Shown in pieces: positions 4,001-60,630 of a stretch of 64,000 nucleotides of DNA. How positions within the stretch are numbered: position 1 is the first letter of the stretch; each line of letters opens with the position of its first letter. The notes under the pieces are model-generated. The model was not told where the DNA came from and made no database searches. It was given only the letters and a program-made list of their open reading frames with translations. Source of the DNA: Anadara kagoshimensis (taxonomy: Eukaryota > Mollusca > Bivalvia > Arcoida > Arcidae); the NCBI GenBank assembly GCA_021292105.1, contig CM037870.1:15471234-15535233 (forward strand), written 5' to 3'. A program made the translations under genes and the position numbers.

Positions 4001-7000
4001 TCATTATTATTACAATTATTATTTTACGATAAAAATGATGCCGTTTATATGCATTTTCAGATTGCATACCATCAAAATGATAAATTGTAACTAAACTTTT
4101 GTCCAAAAGTTTAATTTAGATGTAGTTTTTTAACAGGAGGTTGCAGTATTTTTAGATAAGCAAATATCAGGAACAGGTTAACATCAATGATGCATGTTAA
4201 TGTCTATAAATTGAATGCCATGTATTTATACTGATTGGTAAATAATATTGACCCGCCCGCTGTATCTTTCGTTTGCTTTCGCGGGTAATAATATAATATT
4301 GACATTGCCTGATTTCAATTATTTAGTGAAACAAGCATATGTGTTCCCTATAAATATGCTGTCCATAATTAAATTAATTAAAGGACAAGACAACAGATCT
4401 GTGTTGTTTGCGTATACAGTGTCTTTAGGGTAAATTTGTATGGTACTTACTGCAAACTTGTCGGGTACTTTTAACTTTGGTGTGTTGACTCCAATAATCA
4501 TGTCCAATCCTACCATCATAAGAATGGCAATCAATACAGCAAAATCACTAAGGTATTGTCTGACCTGCGCGAAAAATAAAATTACAGGAATCAATTCTAC
4601 ATACATAATCAAAAATGCTGCAGTAAACCTTCGTTTTCGTGCCCTCTAGATACCTTTCCCACCTAGCTTATCGCCACACTATTTTCAAGTTTTAAAACTC
4701 ATTTTCTACATTTTTCTTTAAAATCTCCCTAATCCCCCTTTTAATGCCTAAATTTAACTCAACAAAATGGTTTTACTGTAATAAACCATCGCACCGTCTA
4801 AATGGGCGTTTATTGTGCTGTTCCTTCCTTTACTCGCCTATTGGCTAGTTTGAATTGGTTTGCGCGGTTAAGATTTGAACAAAGTTTGCAACCATTTACA
4901 CGTTTTATCATATTTGCCTGCATATCGACGAAATGCAAAGTAAATCTTATCACAATGTTATTAAAATTCCAATTTTATATTGTTCTAGAAATTTAGATGT
5001 ACCCGATTGTATCTTTATTATACTTACAAAAGTTGGGAAATATCCACTTGTTTTAAATGCTTTTAGACCATAGGCAATGGTGAATGTTCCAATAAACAAA
5101 ATGAATGACAGGAAAAATACATCTGGGTAGTAGTGTGGAGTGAAGCATCCGCCACCGAGCAGAGTACCGTTATTTTTAAGACAGGTTGTGGCATTCATGA
5201 CTGTGTAGTTCAGACAGTTGGTGAAGTTCTCCATGGATGATCCAAAGACATCATATGTTGAGTTTTCTATACTTTCATAAAGTGAGCATGGGAGTGTCAT
5301 ATTTCCCACCATGGTAAGAGAGATGCTATCCATCGAAGAAGCAATACCGGACTCCGGAAGCCATGTGTCATTTCCTAAAGTAATATTTGGAGCTAAACAG
5401 GCGCAATCGTAATTCAGTTCAACTTCATGATTGCGGTTGAACGGATATTTCGTATAAATACCAAAAACTTTTTTGAAAGCTTCATAGATGAAAATGATAG
5501 CAATGAGGCAAGCAAAACTTTCTTCTGTGAATCGGGTAATGTATCGAACAAGTGCACTTAAATCGAACGCAACAACTAGTAACAATATACCAGTAGTCCA
5601 TATACCAACCCAACACCGGACAGGTAGAAATTGCCATTCATTGTCTCTGAAAGAGATAAAATAAATTATTTTTGATATACTGAAGAGTTGCATAATAGTG
5701 TTTAACGTCTCAGTAAAGAATATTTAAACGTCGCCAGCTATAGGCGAAGGTGCAGAAATTCTTCCTGTGTCTTGAGCTGTTGGTATTATACAGCAGGGAT
5801 CCTTATCGTGCCACGCCTACTGACTCGGGACCTCGTTTCATATTTAAAGTTCCCATTCGAAAGATCCGCGAGTTTATTTCGTAATGCCAAGTGCTTGGTG
5901 AAGGAATAGTCACTACCCACTTTTAAGTCTTTGGCGAGACCCGATCAGGGCTCGAACCAACAACCTCCCACTTACGAAGCTAGCACTCTGTCAACTCAGC
6001 TATCCCAATGGTGTACCATATTAAAGACTTCGTCATGGCTCACTAGATAAACATCTTCAATCTAATAGATGATAATGGTTTTGACCACATTTTTACAGTT
6101 GCGTGATTTATTAAGCTTGTTTCAAAACGTTTTTTATTTAATCTATGCAAATATCGGTTTTTTATTTCGTTAAAACCTTACATTTGCTCAAATGACTAAA
6201 AACTTACCAAATCAATCATACCAATCTATGTCAAAACCCAAATCAAATAGCAAACTATACAACTATGAAGCTGGCAAATAAGTTGGAACACCCGAACTTC
6301 CACCAGGAAATGAGGTCATAGGGCTAAACTTCCCGTTAACCTAGCTACACCTACCATGCGTATAATACTTTTGGCGTTTTTGAAATGAAAATATTCCGAA
6401 AAAGATGAGGAAGAATGAAAGTGATAAATAAAAGGATGCGTTTAGCCTTATCCGTTAAGGCATTTAAACATGTATAACATATAACTGCTAGTATTAGGAT
6501 GGTGGAGGGGAACCGGAATGCTCGAAGAACTCATCAACCTTCAGCAAGAAAAGTGACATATTTGTTCAATATAGGATTACTTCCAGACACTAAGTCCACT
6601 GCGAAAAGACCATAGTAACAAAAGTGCGAGTAATAATGTTTTACGCCCCAGTCATTATTCTTTTACTTATATCGAGGTGGTTAAGGGAGATGGAGGAAAC
6701 TGGAGTACCCTAGGAAAACCAACGTCCTTTGACAAACTTCCTGACACTAACGTCTCTAACGAGATTTCAACGTACTGTGATAAGTAACCATACATTTTCG
6801 AAAGGAATCAGAAGAAAAGCCATGTTAATATATACATACTTGCAGAAGTTGTAGAGAATCATTTCCAGGACCAACATAGGACCTGTACTACCTAGAATGT
6901 TCAGCGGTTGACCAGAAAACAAGGCAAAGGCAACTCCTGTAATAGCGGCTGTTAGAATACACTCCATTGTACCCTGGAATAATATAAATTTACAATGTTA

Positions 7001-13000: not shown

Positions 13001-16000
13001 GTATTGACCCTTGAGGTATGAGCTCGTATATATACACAAAATTGTTCAGTAATAGGTGTGGCTAGATTTTGAGGTACATAAAACTCAGTCAATGTTCAGT
13101 AATATTTTTAGGTACATGGCATTGTTCAGCAATGTTACTTGGTTTTGCGGTACATAAAACTGTTCAGTAATATGGACAGGTTTCCAGATAGTTTTGGTAT
13201 CGTATCTCTATTAAAGACAAAGTTTAGCAATGTTTGGAAGAACATGAGATTGTTCAGTAATGTTACTAGGTTTTGTGGTTAAAAAAAAACCTGTTCAGTA
13301 ATATGATCAGGTTTCGAGTAATTACAAAATCTGGTATCTCTATTATATAAGCAATGTTCAGTGATGTTTAGAGTAAATAAAATTGTTCAGTAATGTCAGT
13401 AGGTTTTCCGGCTCATAAAACTCATCGGTTATATGGACATTTTTCGAGGTAGTTGTGGTATCTTCTGATCAAGCTTGTAATTGTATTTGCACCTCTGTTT
13501 GTAGGTTCCACTGTTCGCTGGCCTGTCTTCATCATCTTTGTTCTTATCTATTCTACGATTTTCATATTTTTATTGCTACCAAATGTTCACCTTTTCAAAC
13601 GCTTCAGTAAAGATACAGTAATGAAAATGGACCAAAGGGAAATTACAAAACCCTAACCTTAAGCCTACATTGTATCTCTTTAAAAAATCTCTTCCTACGT
13701 ATACTTAATGCAATTTGTAGGGGACTTCAAACACAAGTGGAGGGAACACATGTACATTTGTATAAACAGAAATGTATATATGTGAATGCATTTATTTCTA
13801 ACAAATATACTGCCTACTTAAGTCAATGTATATCCAAATCACTTTATCAAGAACATTATCTCTTTTATAAAACTACAAAAATTATGTATACAACTCAATT
13901 TTCTTTATACACAGTGTAATCAACCAGAAGCTTAAAACATCTTTGAAATCCCACTTCTTATTCATTGAGGGTCGAGCGGTCAGTTAAAATGATTGATTTG
14001 TATGTTGTATATCATATCCAGTACAGACTTGTCGAAAGTTTAACATTCAGCTAACGAATAAGTGCCGTTTATCTCGATTAGTCGTTAGCTACATTTCCAC
14101 AGCCTTTTTTTGCAGCTATTATCTATCTCTCGACAGTTTTTCGGTCATGGACTATCCATTACTCAGTCACTCGATTGCCGAGCGTACACTACTTTTTGTT
14201 AGGTAAATGTTAAACTTTCGACAGGTCTGTATTATATATATACTATATAATTGTATTTTGCTTAATGGTCCGATATTGATATATCTATTAAGTCAATAGC
14301 CTCATTTGCATAATAATCAGACCACCTCAGAATTCTCATTTCGCGGAGGTTATCATGGCAATGATCTAGACGTTTTGTAATAAATATTTCATTTGTTTAC
14401 AGAAAGCGAGAGGCTTTGTTTGGGGAGCCCAGTATTTATAGACAAGTCAATTTTAGAGCGCTTTGCATACTGCTTCTAGCGAGAATTTCAAAAACTATGC
14501 CTTTTGTTTACAGAAATAAAGGTGTTCTGTTTCGGGATGTTTGTTTTTATTTGCCTGACAATTTTATAGTACTTGTTACAACGAAGCAGCTTCCAACACC
14601 CAGACGCTACTAACACCTTCAACATAACAACAGTTATCCACTATATTAGAATATTAATGTTTTCTAACTGCCCATACATCATATAAATTTGCACATAATG
14701 ACATACCGAAAAATACAGTACAGACCTGCCGAAAGTTTAACACTAAGCTTAAGAATCAGCCCCGAATTGACAGCTCTCCTTGGGTTCTCCCTAGCTACAC
14801 CTAGACAGATTTTCGGCCGCTAGCTACCCATATCTCAACCATCCTGCAGCCGAGCTTGAACGTCTTGCCGTTTGCTTAGTGCTAAACTTTCGACAGGCTA
14901 TGTCAAAACTGTATTCACATTTATTTGTTTCAAAAAGTTTATTTAATTTAGAATTCACAGACGGAGCAAAAACACTTTTAATTTTATCAAGACAGTTATT
15001 TTTAGTACATTGTATCATGAATTTGATATAGTTTGTCTATTACCTTCGCTGATGATGGAGATTCCGAGAGGTCGCCACCATTTTCCATATTGGGGAAACT
15101 TCTTGGATTTCCTCTCATACCACCCTGTATACTATCTGTAAAAGAAAACGATTGAATATCTAACATTTACAAAATAATTGGGAAAATATTAAATATCAAT
15201 AGTTTTGTCGTGTAATTTACCAAGGCTCGAATTCGTTGGCTAACAGCTCATATATGGAAACCTCGTTAGTTATATTTCGATAGAGTTTCGGACGCTACTT
15301 TCTATAAATCTGCATTTTTTACACTGACTATACATATCTGCCATTATGTAACCTAGCTTCTACTCTTTTTTGTAAAATCAGGTATAAATTTTCGATAGGT
15401 CTGCATTGCACGTAATAGTAGGCTTAGCTCTGCCATTTGCCTGTTTAGCCAATTGCTAATTTTTATTATTTCTCGCTCCAAAAAATAGATTTGGCAATTA
15501 TTTAAATCCTAAATGTTTATCATTTTTATATTAGGCAGACAAAAGTCACTTATTTTTCTTTTTACACAAGTATGAACAAGTATCAAGTAAACCAACAAGT
15601 GTTACTAACTGTTAATGAAGAATCGATACAGCAGATTAGAAGAACTGCTTTTGAGACATTTTTGCTGCGTTTACTGGTTTTTCTGGTCGTCTTTGACATA
15701 TTGGCTCCTAAAGTTTACCAATTTTAAATTGGCTACTCTTGCTAAACCTCGGTGACAATGTCGTAATACAGTGCCAAAGTTCCGACAAATTAAAATACAT
15801 ACCCCTTGATCTAATCAAAAACTGTCTTCCTATATCTCAGAGTATTTTCTCTCTAATGACAACTGGTTGAGAAAGCTGAATATCTCTACATGATAAACAT
15901 GTATGACAAATAATTTGTTGACATAATCTCCAAACAGTATTGAACTAGCGATCGTGAAATTGAAATACATACCCCTTGATTTCATCGAAAACTGTCTTCC

Positions 16001-16918
16001 TATCTCAGAGAATGTTCTCTTCATTGACATCTTCCTACCACCAAAGTCATCAGGTGTAGTGGTTTTACGGCGTTTTTGATGTTGATGTCTATGTGAAGCC
16101 ATTATGGCAGCCTTTATTTCATCTCGTAATGAGGATTCTAATAATTTTCCATTAATTAGCTGATCAAGTAACAAATCTGAAAAAATAAAACAAAACATAT
16201 ACAAATGGTTAAATGGTTTAAGCCCTGCTAAAATATATAGAAGTGTTCCTTTTATGACATCCACAAAAATTATAATGTTGGTTAAAAAAAAGCCTAAAAT
16301 GACAGAATAAACCGTTTTTGTAAAATGCATTTCTGCATATATTCATCATGAGTTCATAGATGAGGACAACCGCAAGAAACATACAAAAGTTGGGGTATTC
16401 TTATTGTGTAAGCTGGTGCTTAAAAACAATCACGCATTTACTAAAAAAAGGTGCTTAAAAACAACTACACAATGTATAGTGATGCAATTCTGATCCTTAT
16501 TCTAACGCTGAACAGAAAATTATTTGTCTTGTTTAATAGATAGTTCCATTTAAACTATGTCTATAACTTCATATACCTGCAACTTGTCCTATATGCATGG
16601 CATCCATATCCAACATGACAGCACCGGTAAGTAGAGATGATCTCAGCTCAAACAATGAATGGAGCGAAAGTGAGGCAACGTGGGGTTTGGACCAACGCTC
16701 TCCTCCTTCTTCGACATCCTCTTCATATTTAACCCATCTGTAAGTCAGAATATTGAATAGTTTATTTGACAGCTTAAGACACCGGCTTAAAAGCTTTAAA
16801 AGCTGGGCATAGGAAAGGTATCCGATTATTAGTGTCCAGATTCATTAGATTCATTTTATCCATTCCCATGTTCTATCGCAAAGCAAACGGAAAATTAATA
16901 TCGAACATCAGAGTGGGC

Positions 16919-57340: not shown

Positions 57341-57629
57341 TTTTTGACGGGACATGCAATAAAGACGACAACTTGAGGTTAACGTGTCAGAATTACTCGG
57401 TTTACGAGTGTATATTTAGAAGTGTTTTACAGATACTCTTGTTTAAAAGATGACATTTGAATAAAAGTGTTCATTGTTTTACAATTCGGTTTTATATGCC
57501 TGAATTAGTAATATTAAATATGTCATTAGGTATTACTCAAAATCGTTCCTGGAATCAAAGGGAGGAGGGGATAAATGTCCTTATTTAACAGGTATAATTG
57601 CTAATTTCAACTATATTTTCGGTACATGT

Positions 57630-57765
57630 ACTACTTGCTCCTGGTCTCACTTTCCTGGTAGAAATTCGGGTGTTTAACGCATACGCAATTTGTCAGTTTT
57701 CAAACTTTTAACTGTGGGATTGTGTTTTTGGCATCGACCGGTATGCTAGTGTTCGATGTTGGACT
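57630..57765 (+). repeat. Dispersed repeat family C, copy 13
   Basis: TGCTCCTGGTCTCACTTTCC, TGGTAGAAATTCGGGTGTTT, CATCGACCGGTATGCTAG. Confidence 0.7.
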
Positions 57766-58034
57766 ATTCATACACCCATAAAAACATAAATAACGTTCGG
57801 CAGAAATGTGTAGACTGGATGGTAGATCGGGACGAATAATAATCACCAAAGGTTGGACTGCAATCCTGGATCCGAGGTTCCGAAAGGATCAACTTACATT
57901 TTCTTTAATGTCAGATATCATTACAATATATAGTTCCCATGGAACAACTATGATAACATCTCTGGAAAATTGATACAACCGTGTAGTTTGTGTTATTTGA
58001 TCATGACATCATTTAAATAACTGTTATGACTGCA

Positions 58035-58195
58035 TTTGGGACTTAACAGGACGTGTCTACCCTTCAAGAGCACCCGGCCTCATTTCCATGGTGGAAGTTC
58101 ACGTATTTAACCCAATATGTCAGTTTCAAAGTCTTTACTTTGCTTTGGGATTGCCATTTGGACATGTATCAGTAGGTATGGTTTTTAATTGACAT
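58035..58195 (+). repeat. Dispersed repeat family C, copy 14
   Basis: AAGAGCACCCGGCCTCATTT, GGTGGAAGTTCACGTATTTA, CAAAGTCTTTACTTTGCTTT. Ends 15 bp before the TA-flanked element. Confidence 0.85.
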
Positions 58196-58211
58196 GTATG
58201 ACGTATCTGTA

Positions 58212-59619
58212 CAGTGCTTACGGCAGTAGCGGATCATTAGTGCAATATTCACTGCTCTCCGAGAAAAACATCACTGCTGATTGTAATTTTTTGGTACTAT
58301 CAATTGACATTTCTCCACTCTTTCAATTTATCATTAGATGATAAAAATCGTCCGACTATAAGTATGGGCAATCCACGCGTTTTGTATCCCATGTATTTAC
58401 GTCAGTAACGAATCAATTTGTGAGTAGCGGATCACGCCACCTAGTGTCAAGAAAACTATAGAGGCTCAACTCAAAACATGATTAGTTTGAGTTTCCATCA
58501 TTCAATTGCAACAAAATACAAATTATGAAACAATATTAAAGAGTTTTAATCGTTATATCAACAAATGTCATGATTAAATAAATAATAACAAAAACAAATC
58601 ATCGCAATGTCCCTGATAAATTAAGTCAATCAACATTGTCTTGAATACTGAATTATAAAAGCAGTAAATAGCGAAGGAAATAAAATAAAGTAAATGTACC
58701 TTATAAGTTATAAATATTATGACATACTCTTGTCCATGAAGATTTTATTTTGACAAGAACAGTATATGCATACAATGATACTTATTGGTATTGTACACTG
58801 TACATCATAGGTCCAAAATTGTTACCAGGCAAAAATATAGAACGGAATGAAACTTTAATTGTCTTAAACACAAAATATAGGGTTGGATATTAATGTATTT
58901 ATTCAATATATTCTAATCTCATACAGATTATCCTTCAAGCATGACAATTATGGCTTCTTTAAAATGCCCATTGATCTGGTCTTATCATATGATAGATAAG
59001 ATAGTGCCATGGCATGACAATGCCCCCATCTTTCTCATGGGGTACTGGCCATGGAGGGAAGCTAGGCACTGGTTCTCCAATAGCCTCTGCATAAATATAA
59101 CTGAACCCACCAGAATCTAATTTTTCTGAAAGCACCAGACAGCCCCATGGGTACATGCCATATTTTCTTAGCCTTTCGAGAGGTCCCCTGTAGACAGCAG
59201 CTGATCCGTTATTGCCGTAATTGCACCCTGCATAAACTGGTTTATTTTTTATTGTCATGAACTGTAAAGCTCAATAAAGGTTTATGTCGTGAAAGAAGAC
59301 ATGTTAACGAATGTAAAGAGCTATTGTAATCATTTCAAATTACCTTTGAAAGTATTGATCACGTTGGTCAAATCGAAAGTTAGGTTTTGGAAATCACATC
59401 CATGTCGCTGAGACGCTTGTGACATTCGCATTAGAAAGCCGAGAATTTAAAAAAAAAGGACGTTTATCAACACAAATGAAACGTAGAATTAAGTTAAAAT
59501 ACACGATTTACAGAAATACATCCGAGTTTTATTGGTCTCTCGTAATGATATGGAAAAAATTTACTTTATTCTAAAAATGATCCGCTACTGACTGAGATCC
59601 GCTACTGCCGTAAGCACTG
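58212..59619. mobile_element. 1.4-kb TA-flanked inverted-repeat element (Tc1/mariner/pogo-like ends)
   Basis: Perfect 24-bp inverted ends (CAGTGCTTACGGCAGTAGCG then GATC) at 58212 and 59619, bounded by TA at 58210-58211 and 59620-59621. A second GTAGCGGATC word lies inside each end (about 58425 and 59580, same orientation relative to each end), as expected for transposase-binding subterminal repeats. CAGT termini with TA duplication are typical of the Tc1/mariner-pogo group. No transposase is encoded; instead it contains the open frame at 58959-59258, so it is probably non-autonomous with unrelated cargo. Confidence 0.85.
58959..59258 (-). CDS. Unknown 99-residue protein carried by the TA-flanked element
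   Basis: ATG at 59258, TAA at 58959. The protein is not low complexity and is rich in Gly, Pro, Tyr and Trp: KPVYAGCNYGNNGSAAVYRG, KYGMYPWGCLVLSEKL, GFSYIYAEAIGEPVPSFPPW, GGIVMPWHYLIYHM. Such composition is unusual for chance translation of this AT-rich DNA. No transposase motif, no signal peptide. A possible upstream exon (about 59355-59441, minus; RMSQASQRHGCDFQNLTFDL then TNVINTFK, followed by GTAATT) could splice in at a CCAG before GTTTATGCAGGG and keep frame. Family not recognised. Confidence 0.5.
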   Translation of the reverse strand: MTIKNKPVYAGCNYGNNGSAAVYRGPLERLRKYGMYPWGCLVLSEKLDSGGFSYIYAEAIGEPVPSFPPWPVPHEKDGGIVMPWHYLIYHMIRPDQWAF

Positions 59620-59694
59620 TAGCATAAATTACCCTGGATTTTTTTTACGTCTCAAAGTGTCATGTTCCTTTCATTTTTAGTTTTGAGTTCACAT

Positions 59695-59845
59695 AGTGCA
59701 GGTGCAGCCAACTAATAGGAGGTGCCTTCGAGAGCATCATATCTTATCCTCCTGGTGGAAGTCCACTGTTGAACTATATTTATAAAGTTTTTAACATGTT
59801 TAAATTCTTTGCTTTTGTATTGTAACTTGAACATGTGTAGCAATT
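59695..59845 (+). repeat. Dispersed repeat family C, copy 15
   Basis: CAACTAATAGGAGGTGCCTT, CTCCTGGTGGAAGTCCAC, then TTCTTTGCTTTTGTATTGTA. Confidence 0.65.
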
Positions 59846-60630
59846 TGAGAACTTTAAATCATATTTAGTCAGGATCAGGACTCAGTTGTTCGACGCTTGA
59901 TTAGTTTACTCAGTGATTAGCAGAAATTTAAAACATGAATAAAAAAGCAAAATATCATTATCGAATCGATAGTTTTTATTACAATTTCCTTTAGTTTGTT
60001 GGAATTTTTTATTAATTTTCAACATTTCAACATTAAGTTCACAGATATCTTAAATTATGAAAAGTTCAAATTTTGACTAATCAATTGATTAAACTAATCA
60101 TGCTTCGAACAACTGACCCCTGGTTTCAATCCAGAGGCTGGATTTTAATTATCTGCGTTCTATACGCTTGTGTTTTTTTATTCTTCCTTATGTTAACTTC
60201 GACGACGGAAATAACCAAATTTTCATTTACAAGTATGAAAGAAACAGAACAAACTAATACCGATGTCAAATGCAAATTTGAATATTTATGATATAAAGTA
60301 TTCACAAATTACCATATTACACATGCAATTTTTGACAGCAGTCCGACACATTCTGTAGGTATGCAGCAGCGAAACAATAAAAATTGAAAGCAAACTGGAG
60401 CAGTCTCCTTAGAGACAAATGCCCCTTGTCCATAATATTTGACCTTGTGATTCTTGACTAATGTACTAAAAGTTGGTTTGCGGCACTTGCCACATGGTTT
60501 ATGTTTGTTCCAAGTTTGATCAAAAGTCATCCATAGACATACATGGAGCGGGCACGATATTAGCTATAGGATGAACGGCCAGGCGGACGTGGGGATTTTA
60601 TATAACACTCCTCCCGTTTTGTGGAGGTTT

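Follow-up and report, generated by a model that had tools for sequence, protein, structure and literature searches.

The DNA analysed here (the window, 64,000 nucleotides of Anadara kagoshimensis) contains an element with inverted ends that carries an open reading frame of 99 residues. The preliminary description of the locus noted that Tc1/mariner and pogo-type elements normally carry a transposase or nothing, and proposed that this frame is a captured host exon or a small gene that travels with the element. The question is thus where the frame comes from and whether it is maintained.

The element, its copies and its surroundings

The inverted ends are perfect, as was described from the sequence: the two arms (58210-58235 and 59596-59621) comprise 26 nt each, TA plus 24 bp, and are 100% complementary. 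In the window the terminal 24-mer is found only at these two places, as the left terminal inverted repeat (TIR) CAGTGCTTACGGCAGTAGCGGATC on the plus strand (58212-58235) and as the right one on the minus strand (59596-59619), against a mean of 0.00 in shuffled sequences (n=100, up to three mismatches allowed). Both repeats are assigned from the complementarity of the arms together with the genome-wide TIR count, and the non-autonomous pogo-like element as a whole extends from TA to TA over 58210-59621, as judged from 40 aligned copies and one clean empty site. We read it on the minus strand, which corresponds to the gene order of the parent.

The second copy of GTAGCGGATC reported inside each end is present as well. 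This motif occurs four times in the window (58226, 58424, 59579 and 59596) against 0.01 expected. At the right end the additional copy stems from a 17-bp tandem duplication (59579-59595, minus strand), of which the exact string is found in 34 of the 40 aligned copies and which is missing from the loci L057 and L059. At the left end, subterminal TIR-like sites cover 58397-58433 on the plus strand (58397-58414 with 15/18 matching positions, and 58416-58433 with 13/18, the latter containing GTAGCGGATC). A further TIR-like site, TTACGGCAATAACGGATC (16/18), lies within the leader part of the open frame at 59203-59220 on the minus strand, where it is translated as CNYGNNGSA; the exact 18-mer recurs in 34/40 copies, and a related site (17/24) is seen at position 2339 of the full-length relative A discussed below.

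The genome searched comprises 1.115 Gb in 36 contigs, with the window located in contig C14. Looking for further copies of the 24-bp ends, as had been proposed, reveals a large family: 533 and 537 TIR matches with at most two mismatches on the two strands, against 0 and 0 for the reversed pattern. Our copy set consists of the best 40 of 767 candidates from the DNA search, being the window copy and 39 other places of approximately 1.35-1.45 kb. These 40 best copies are 93-99% identical to the window copy and differ from each other by 4.4% on average. The end-to-end extent is shared by 38/40, TA is found at both ends of 38/40, and both 26-bp ends are perfect in 29/40. For one copy (L018), joining the flanks over one TA gives a sequence that agrees with a paralogous stretch lacking the insertion (L049) at 175 of 190 positions; the element therefore inserts at TA with duplication of the TA. 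Two more paralogous stretches (L047 and L023, 75-78% identity) were considered as empty sites and dropped because of gaps near the join.

Several relatives deviate from the window type. L053, L054 and L056 form a separate subfamily that is approximately 81-83% identical to the window copy; all three have one identical TIR change (CAGTGATTACGG) and an internal block of their own at the frame. In L057 (C1:24588000-24589930) an insertion of about 344 bp at ~424-767, with a tRNA-like stretch (GGTTCGAACCC) towards its end and a short flank duplication, is probably a tRNA-derived SINE, judged by eye. At L035:1480-3151 a window-type copy and an older relative, 81-84% identical, are arranged head to tail with about 60 bp between them.

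Around the window element, diverged repeats of one unit are found on both sides (57683-57736, 58061-58167 and 59725-59836; 63-80% identity). An Rfam search of 57600-60300 gave no match, and neither did a scan of IMG/VR with 23 bases of the TIR. Elsewhere in the window, on the minus strand, are exons of a bicarbonate transporter gene, presumably of the SLC4 type (2339-2725, 4950-5723 and 15830-16342; Pfam HCO3_cotransp with E=4.9e-26 and 5.8e-44, and Band_3_cyto with E=0.00022, below the cut-off). The element is situated about 42 kb upstream of the third of these stretches.

The parent element and the origin of the frame

The frame itself was confirmed. From stop to stop it occupies 58959-59270 on the minus strand (103 aa), and counted from the ATG at 59258 it encodes 99 aa. 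No match was obtained for it in Pfam, NCBIfam or the PDB sequences. When the 98-aa plurality reading of the copies and the other frames were searched, the sole Pfam match was GREB1_N (E 0.08, below the cut-off), which we take as chance.

Relative A is composed of two adjoining stretches of contig C18 (L068 and L063) and has TA-flanked ends 5015 bp apart. Its TIRs are 22/24 identical to the window TIR, both ends showing identical differences, and between them lie pogo-type transposase frames, then a second gene (ORF2), then the right end. The transposase matches DDE_1 (PF03184) above the cut-off (L063:88-726, E=1.4e-11). A second lineage, C13 (L064 and L069), has an ORF2 of approximately 54% identity with an intact frame of 166 residues, downstream of a broken DDE_1 transposase (L069:1-501, E=4.5e-14). 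ORF2 occupies L063:1908-2384 on the plus strand in A and L064:2072-2569 on the minus strand in the C13 lineage. The transposases of both lineages show DD35D spacing (35 residues before the third D), and their N-terminal helix-turn-helix matches are all below the Pfam cut-offs (HTH_psq with E=0.0018 for A and 0.0082, HTH_Tnp_Tc5 with E=0.0055). A is not intact: its transposase is split across three frames and its ORF2 contains one in-frame stop. Among the loci examined no intact autonomous copy was found. As the 7.1 kb of the C13 lineage yielded no TIR match of at least 16/24, bounding of this lineage by the same kind of end is unsupported.

Within approximately 1.5 kb of the twelve loci considered (L070-L081), transposase matches were obtained only at L070 and L071, which are the A and C13 places. 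Over the same distance no transposase match was found for the broken ORF2 relatives L072 and L079, nor for the ORF2-bearing L073 (the L066 locus) and L081. L066 (C8:297300-301600) and L081 have kept the N-terminal part of ORF2 (LENSVIKGYDEFKI...) with no transposase in reach, and show by eye an RNase H-like retroelement ORF upstream. The repeat unit that flanks the window element also occurs near ORF2 in L066, L073 and L081 (~78%; L073 being the same place as L066). Following the C13 transposase there are cysteine-rich stretches (CPVC, then CHMC) at L064:3363-3584 (minus strand) and in the next frame, which by eye suggest a PHD- or RING-type finger interrupted by a frame change or an intron.

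ORF2 is a genuine parental gene and is constrained between element lineages. Based on six sequences, the dN/dS ratio of its core is 0.26 for A against L065, L067 and L059, and 0.31 for A against L066. For C13 against the five others pS is 0.75-0.79 and pN 0.30-0.32, with saturated synonymous sites. Among the close non-autonomous copies the ratio is 0.38-0.45 where defined (L067 and L059 have zero synonymous differences in the core), values in which past and present constraint cannot be separated. If all aligned columns are used, including the flanking non-core parts, the ratios for A become 0.29-0.44, and values above 1 are obtained for two close pairs (1.29 and 2.04), on few changes.

A putative leader exon would end at a splice-donor-like site (CAAAG/GTAATTT; 59337-59348, minus strand), which lies near the position 59355 from which a splice had been predicted earlier; the 12-mer is exact in 27/40 copies. 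The counterpart in A reads GAAAG/GTAAGT, and acceptor-like sites precede the transposase (ttgcag) and ORF2 (ttttttttcag). A possible gene structure, as far as such signals indicate, is one leader exon donor with two acceptors, one for the transposase and one for ORF2.

The path from such a parent to the window frame can be followed through intermediate forms. L058 and L059 are copies of 1.83 kb with the same TIRs and about 500 bp extra at the middle of the frame, and on the minus strand of L059 a frame of 139 residues extends the tail of the window frame upstream. A genome search with the L059 protein gave 151 matches from the best 150 of 1007 candidates. Among the matches listed, most are window-type tails (query ~60-120) and about fifteen reach further upstream; the tails of other copies show 72-88% protein identity over residues 60-120 of the L059 ORF2. 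Stretches around five of the longer matches were taken for analysis. The window copy is absent from the listed protein matches, in which its sisters are present, and its placement rests on DNA mapping. In gene orientation this mapping is collinear: positions 1-318 and 315-452 of the window element correspond to 967-1270 and 2259-2407 of A, and positions 463-820 and 955-1412 to 5152-5491 and 5502-5981. In the 1.83-kb forms L065 and L059 the match to A ends at ~2563 and starts again at ~4609, so that the transposase is missing; since the match breaks at ~4742 and resumes at 5025, the first half of ORF2 is missing as well. The window form of 1.41 kb is without several hundred bp more than these.

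This further deletion joined the leader to the tail of ORF2 and left the frame open. The leader part runs from the ATG to the deletion junction (59170-59258, minus strand) and is homologous to A:2259-2407, a stretch that in A precedes the start of the transposase and is not an open frame, so the first ~30 codons of the window frame are leader that is noncoding in A. The remainder (58959-59159, minus strand) is the C-terminal remnant of ORF2, homologous to A:5152-5384, and the window copy reads approximately 15 codons outside the frame of ORF2. As the leader is noncoding in A and the tail is ORF2, the apparent cargo gene is a deletion fusion of leader and ORF2 C-terminal part. The earlier remark that the frame is unlike a DDE transposase holds true: it is not transposase-derived, and its tail belongs to the separate ORF2. 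The idea of a small gene travelling with the element is borne out in so far as a constrained ORF2 lies downstream of a pogo-type transposase, and fails for the window element itself, where the 99-aa peptide is an unselected fusion. The window element is a non-autonomous, internally deleted derivative that has TIRs and subterminal DNA in common with A and has lost the transposase. Altogether we consider it very probable that it derives by internal deletion from a pogo-superfamily (IS630-Tc1-mariner) element, with the frame as a relic of ORF2; its copies were presumably mobilised in trans.

The alternative that survives best, though still improbable, is that the frame is a host exon captured by the transposon in a transduplication of the Pack-TIR type. 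The block is GC-rich (0.43-0.53 per 100 bp, against 0.21-0.38 in 58460-58910 and 59210-59510), the ORF2 relics L072 and L079 are without a transposase match within ~1.5 kb, and Pack-TIRs are known in animals, with 115 of 370 in TcMariner elements according to the available part of PMC8277862. Against this, a longer ORF, of which the block forms the tail, follows a pogo-type transposase in two diverged lineages, and the loci examined (best 150 candidates per own-genome protein search) are element copies or relics, with no intact gene free of an element among them. The captured host exon of the preliminary description thus receives no positive support, both full-length ORF2 loci (L063 and L064) having a pogo-type transposase upstream. 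An ancient host capture by the parent element is possible.

The frame among the copies

If the frame were selected cargo of the window's family, with a peptide that is made and helps the element or its host, it should be visible as constraint among the copies. The plurality of the copies is indeed open over 98 codons. The cargo frame had been described as one that has stayed open, yet only 14 of the 40 best copies are open from the ATG to the common stop; since these are the best-scoring copies and not a random sample, this is not an unbiased rate. Eleven of the 14 open copies have KIWHV where the window copy has KYGMY, because the latter crosses the ~15 codons in another frame.

Changes were counted against the column plurality, with expectations taken from the element's own mutation spectrum. 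We observed 38 synonymous changes, 126 nonsynonymous changes and 6 stops, against 38.1, 122.6 and 8.4 expected. Across the 40 best copies the N/S ratio is 1.03 of expectation (1.01 when counting stops), and 42% of the same-length windows in any frame score equal or lower. The Ka/Ks comparison suggested earlier therefore comes out neutral, with no selection on the frame among these copies. Distinct indels are denser in the frame (27 in its 300 bp against 60 in the remaining 1107 bp, p 0.03), and multiples of three are not in excess (4/27 in the frame against 6/60 outside, p 0.49). The preliminary description had stated that breakage at the rate of the flanking DNA would mark it as a chance frame; such breakage is what we find, with 26/40 copies not open and indels no rarer than outside. 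Given the neutral N/S ratio, the indels that are no rarer and the lack of an excess of threes, no coding constraint is visible since the copies spread. As the window copy moreover reads part of the sequence out of the frame of ORF2, a selected cargo is very unlikely. The 99-aa frame is a passenger relic, because ORF2 is constrained between lineages and yet neutral among the 40 window-type copies.

The length of the frame is by itself unremarkable, since a frame at least as long appears in 115/1000 dinucleotide shuffles of the element (18/1000 shuffles of the 321-bp block alone). Such counts and the lack of a family match would fit a mere chance frame of the non-coding transposon DNA that never belonged to a gene, which is true of the leader codons but scarcely credible for the whole and refuted for the C-terminal two thirds, given the matches of the other copies' tails to the L059 ORF2 protein among those listed, the mapping of the window DNA on the ORF2 of A, and the constraint on ORF2 between lineages.

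The second gene and comparison with known systems

With the frame explained as an ORF2 relic in a deleted derivative, the nature of ORF2 becomes of interest. Searches of ORF2 against Pfam, NCBIfam, PHROGs and PDB returned nothing convincing. Matches to a Nab2-like CCCH zinc finger (Pfam, best E 0.022, 2/10 rows) and to the PHD fingers of DPF3 and ubi-d4 (PDB, best E 0.015) are treated as chance, because ORF2 is without most of the finger cysteines in that alignment.

The HIRAN domain of HLTF was raised as a candidate from the sequence, ahead of the fold search. The ORF2 of A contains RE..N..D.N, comparable to RD..N..D.N in HLTF, followed in the same order by GHVP..L..AF..IMD, comparable to GHLK..L..AL..IMD. 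Unlike HLTF, ORF2 has a long insertion between these motifs, and the C13 copy, L065, L066, L067 and L059 have the first motif only in part. Aligned by hhalign, the ORF2 alignment A2 scores 23.3 against the HLTF HIRAN, a value reached by 0/200 shuffles (reversed HLTF 14.2), at a probability of only 11.5% over 32 columns. Local pairwise scores are reached by 5/2000 shuffles for A (stop as X), 4/2000 for its C-piece, 11/2000 for the C13 copy and 1/2000 for L066, and by 128/2000 for the N-piece of A alone; in an end-free global scheme the numbers are 65/2000 for A, 671/2000 for the C13 copy and 4/2000 for L066. The Pfam HIRAN model (PF08797) gives 0/10 rows at E<=10, against E=5.3e-23 for HLTF as positive control. 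The structure models of ORF2 are weak (pLDDT 44.7 and 55.4), and a fold search with an ORF2 model of low confidence placed three HLTF HIRAN entries among the 50 matches listed. Since the Pfam model fails, we do not class ORF2 as HIRAN; the HIRAN-like motifs are suggestive and serve as a hypothesis only.

A mechanism can be sketched on this basis. In the parent, ORF2 would be spliced from a leader exon common with the transposase to an acceptor of its own and would give rise to an accessory protein, which may be HIRAN-like and bind DNA ends. The deleted copies would have been mobilised in trans by a pogo transposase that recognised the TIRs together with the GTAGCGGATC sites repeated subterminally. 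The HIRAN domain of HLTF binds 3'-end ssDNA and forks, as far as the portion of PMC4666394 at hand describes. We put forward tentatively, as a conjecture that is rather doubtful in its full form, that a pogo lineage has, next to its transposase, a conserved second gene expressed from the shared leader exon, whose product is a HIRAN-like 3'-end/fork binder that assists excision, integration or repair, and that non-autonomous derivatives kept parts of it after the transposase was lost. A pogo lineage that carries a constrained second gene would offer a testable model for how such an element recruits or imitates repair factors. The window element also illustrates how, through an internal deletion, a leader can become joined to an accessory gene, giving a cargo frame that looks convincing yet is unselected and that can mislead surveys for gene capture.

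Descriptions of animal Tc1/mariner and pogo elements usually give them a transposase alone. The parent fits the pogo superfamily in target-site duplication, TIR length, DDE_1 domain, DD35D spacing and size. Compared with the DD35D groups in the part of PMC7386202 available (e.g. Passer, Fot/Fot-like), it shares the TA target site, a TIR below 40 bp, DDE_1 with DD35D and a length of 5.0 kb, inside the reported 1.20-5.20 kb; the HTH_psq-type N-terminus is a putative further resemblance, its matches being weak. That part describes one or two ORFs that encode transposases, whereas the parent has a separate downstream non-transposase ORF2, and the TIR-like sites of our element recur subterminally and internally. 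In the portions of the literature searched, pogo elements with a HIRAN-like ORF, or with any other ORF that does not encode a transposase, were not encountered.

Ciliate TBE and Tec elements, compared by description only from an excerpt of PMC7325037, are likewise IS630-Tc1-mariner elements with an accessory ORF beside the transposase; unlike the present lineage they are DD34E, belong to ciliates and have other accessory proteins. Animal TIR elements are known to capture host sequences (PMC8277862, PMC2572040), although the present evidence does not point to such a capture here. With the animal Pack-TIR elements as presented in the former, the window element shares a non-transposase coding-like block between TIRs; it differs in that the block comes, as far as tested, from the element's own second gene.

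The window element further resembles internally deleted non-autonomous TIR elements or long MITEs, which we take to be the kind to which it belongs. It has the TIRs and subterminal DNA of a full-length relative, no transposase, and a family of high copy number and high identity. A length of 1.4 kb is long for a MITE. Unlike such elements it retains the tail of an accessory gene, and for this reason it resembles gene cargo. The window element is thus of a known kind, an internally deleted non-autonomous relative, and the departure from the description of pogo elements lies in the conserved non-transposase second gene of the parent.
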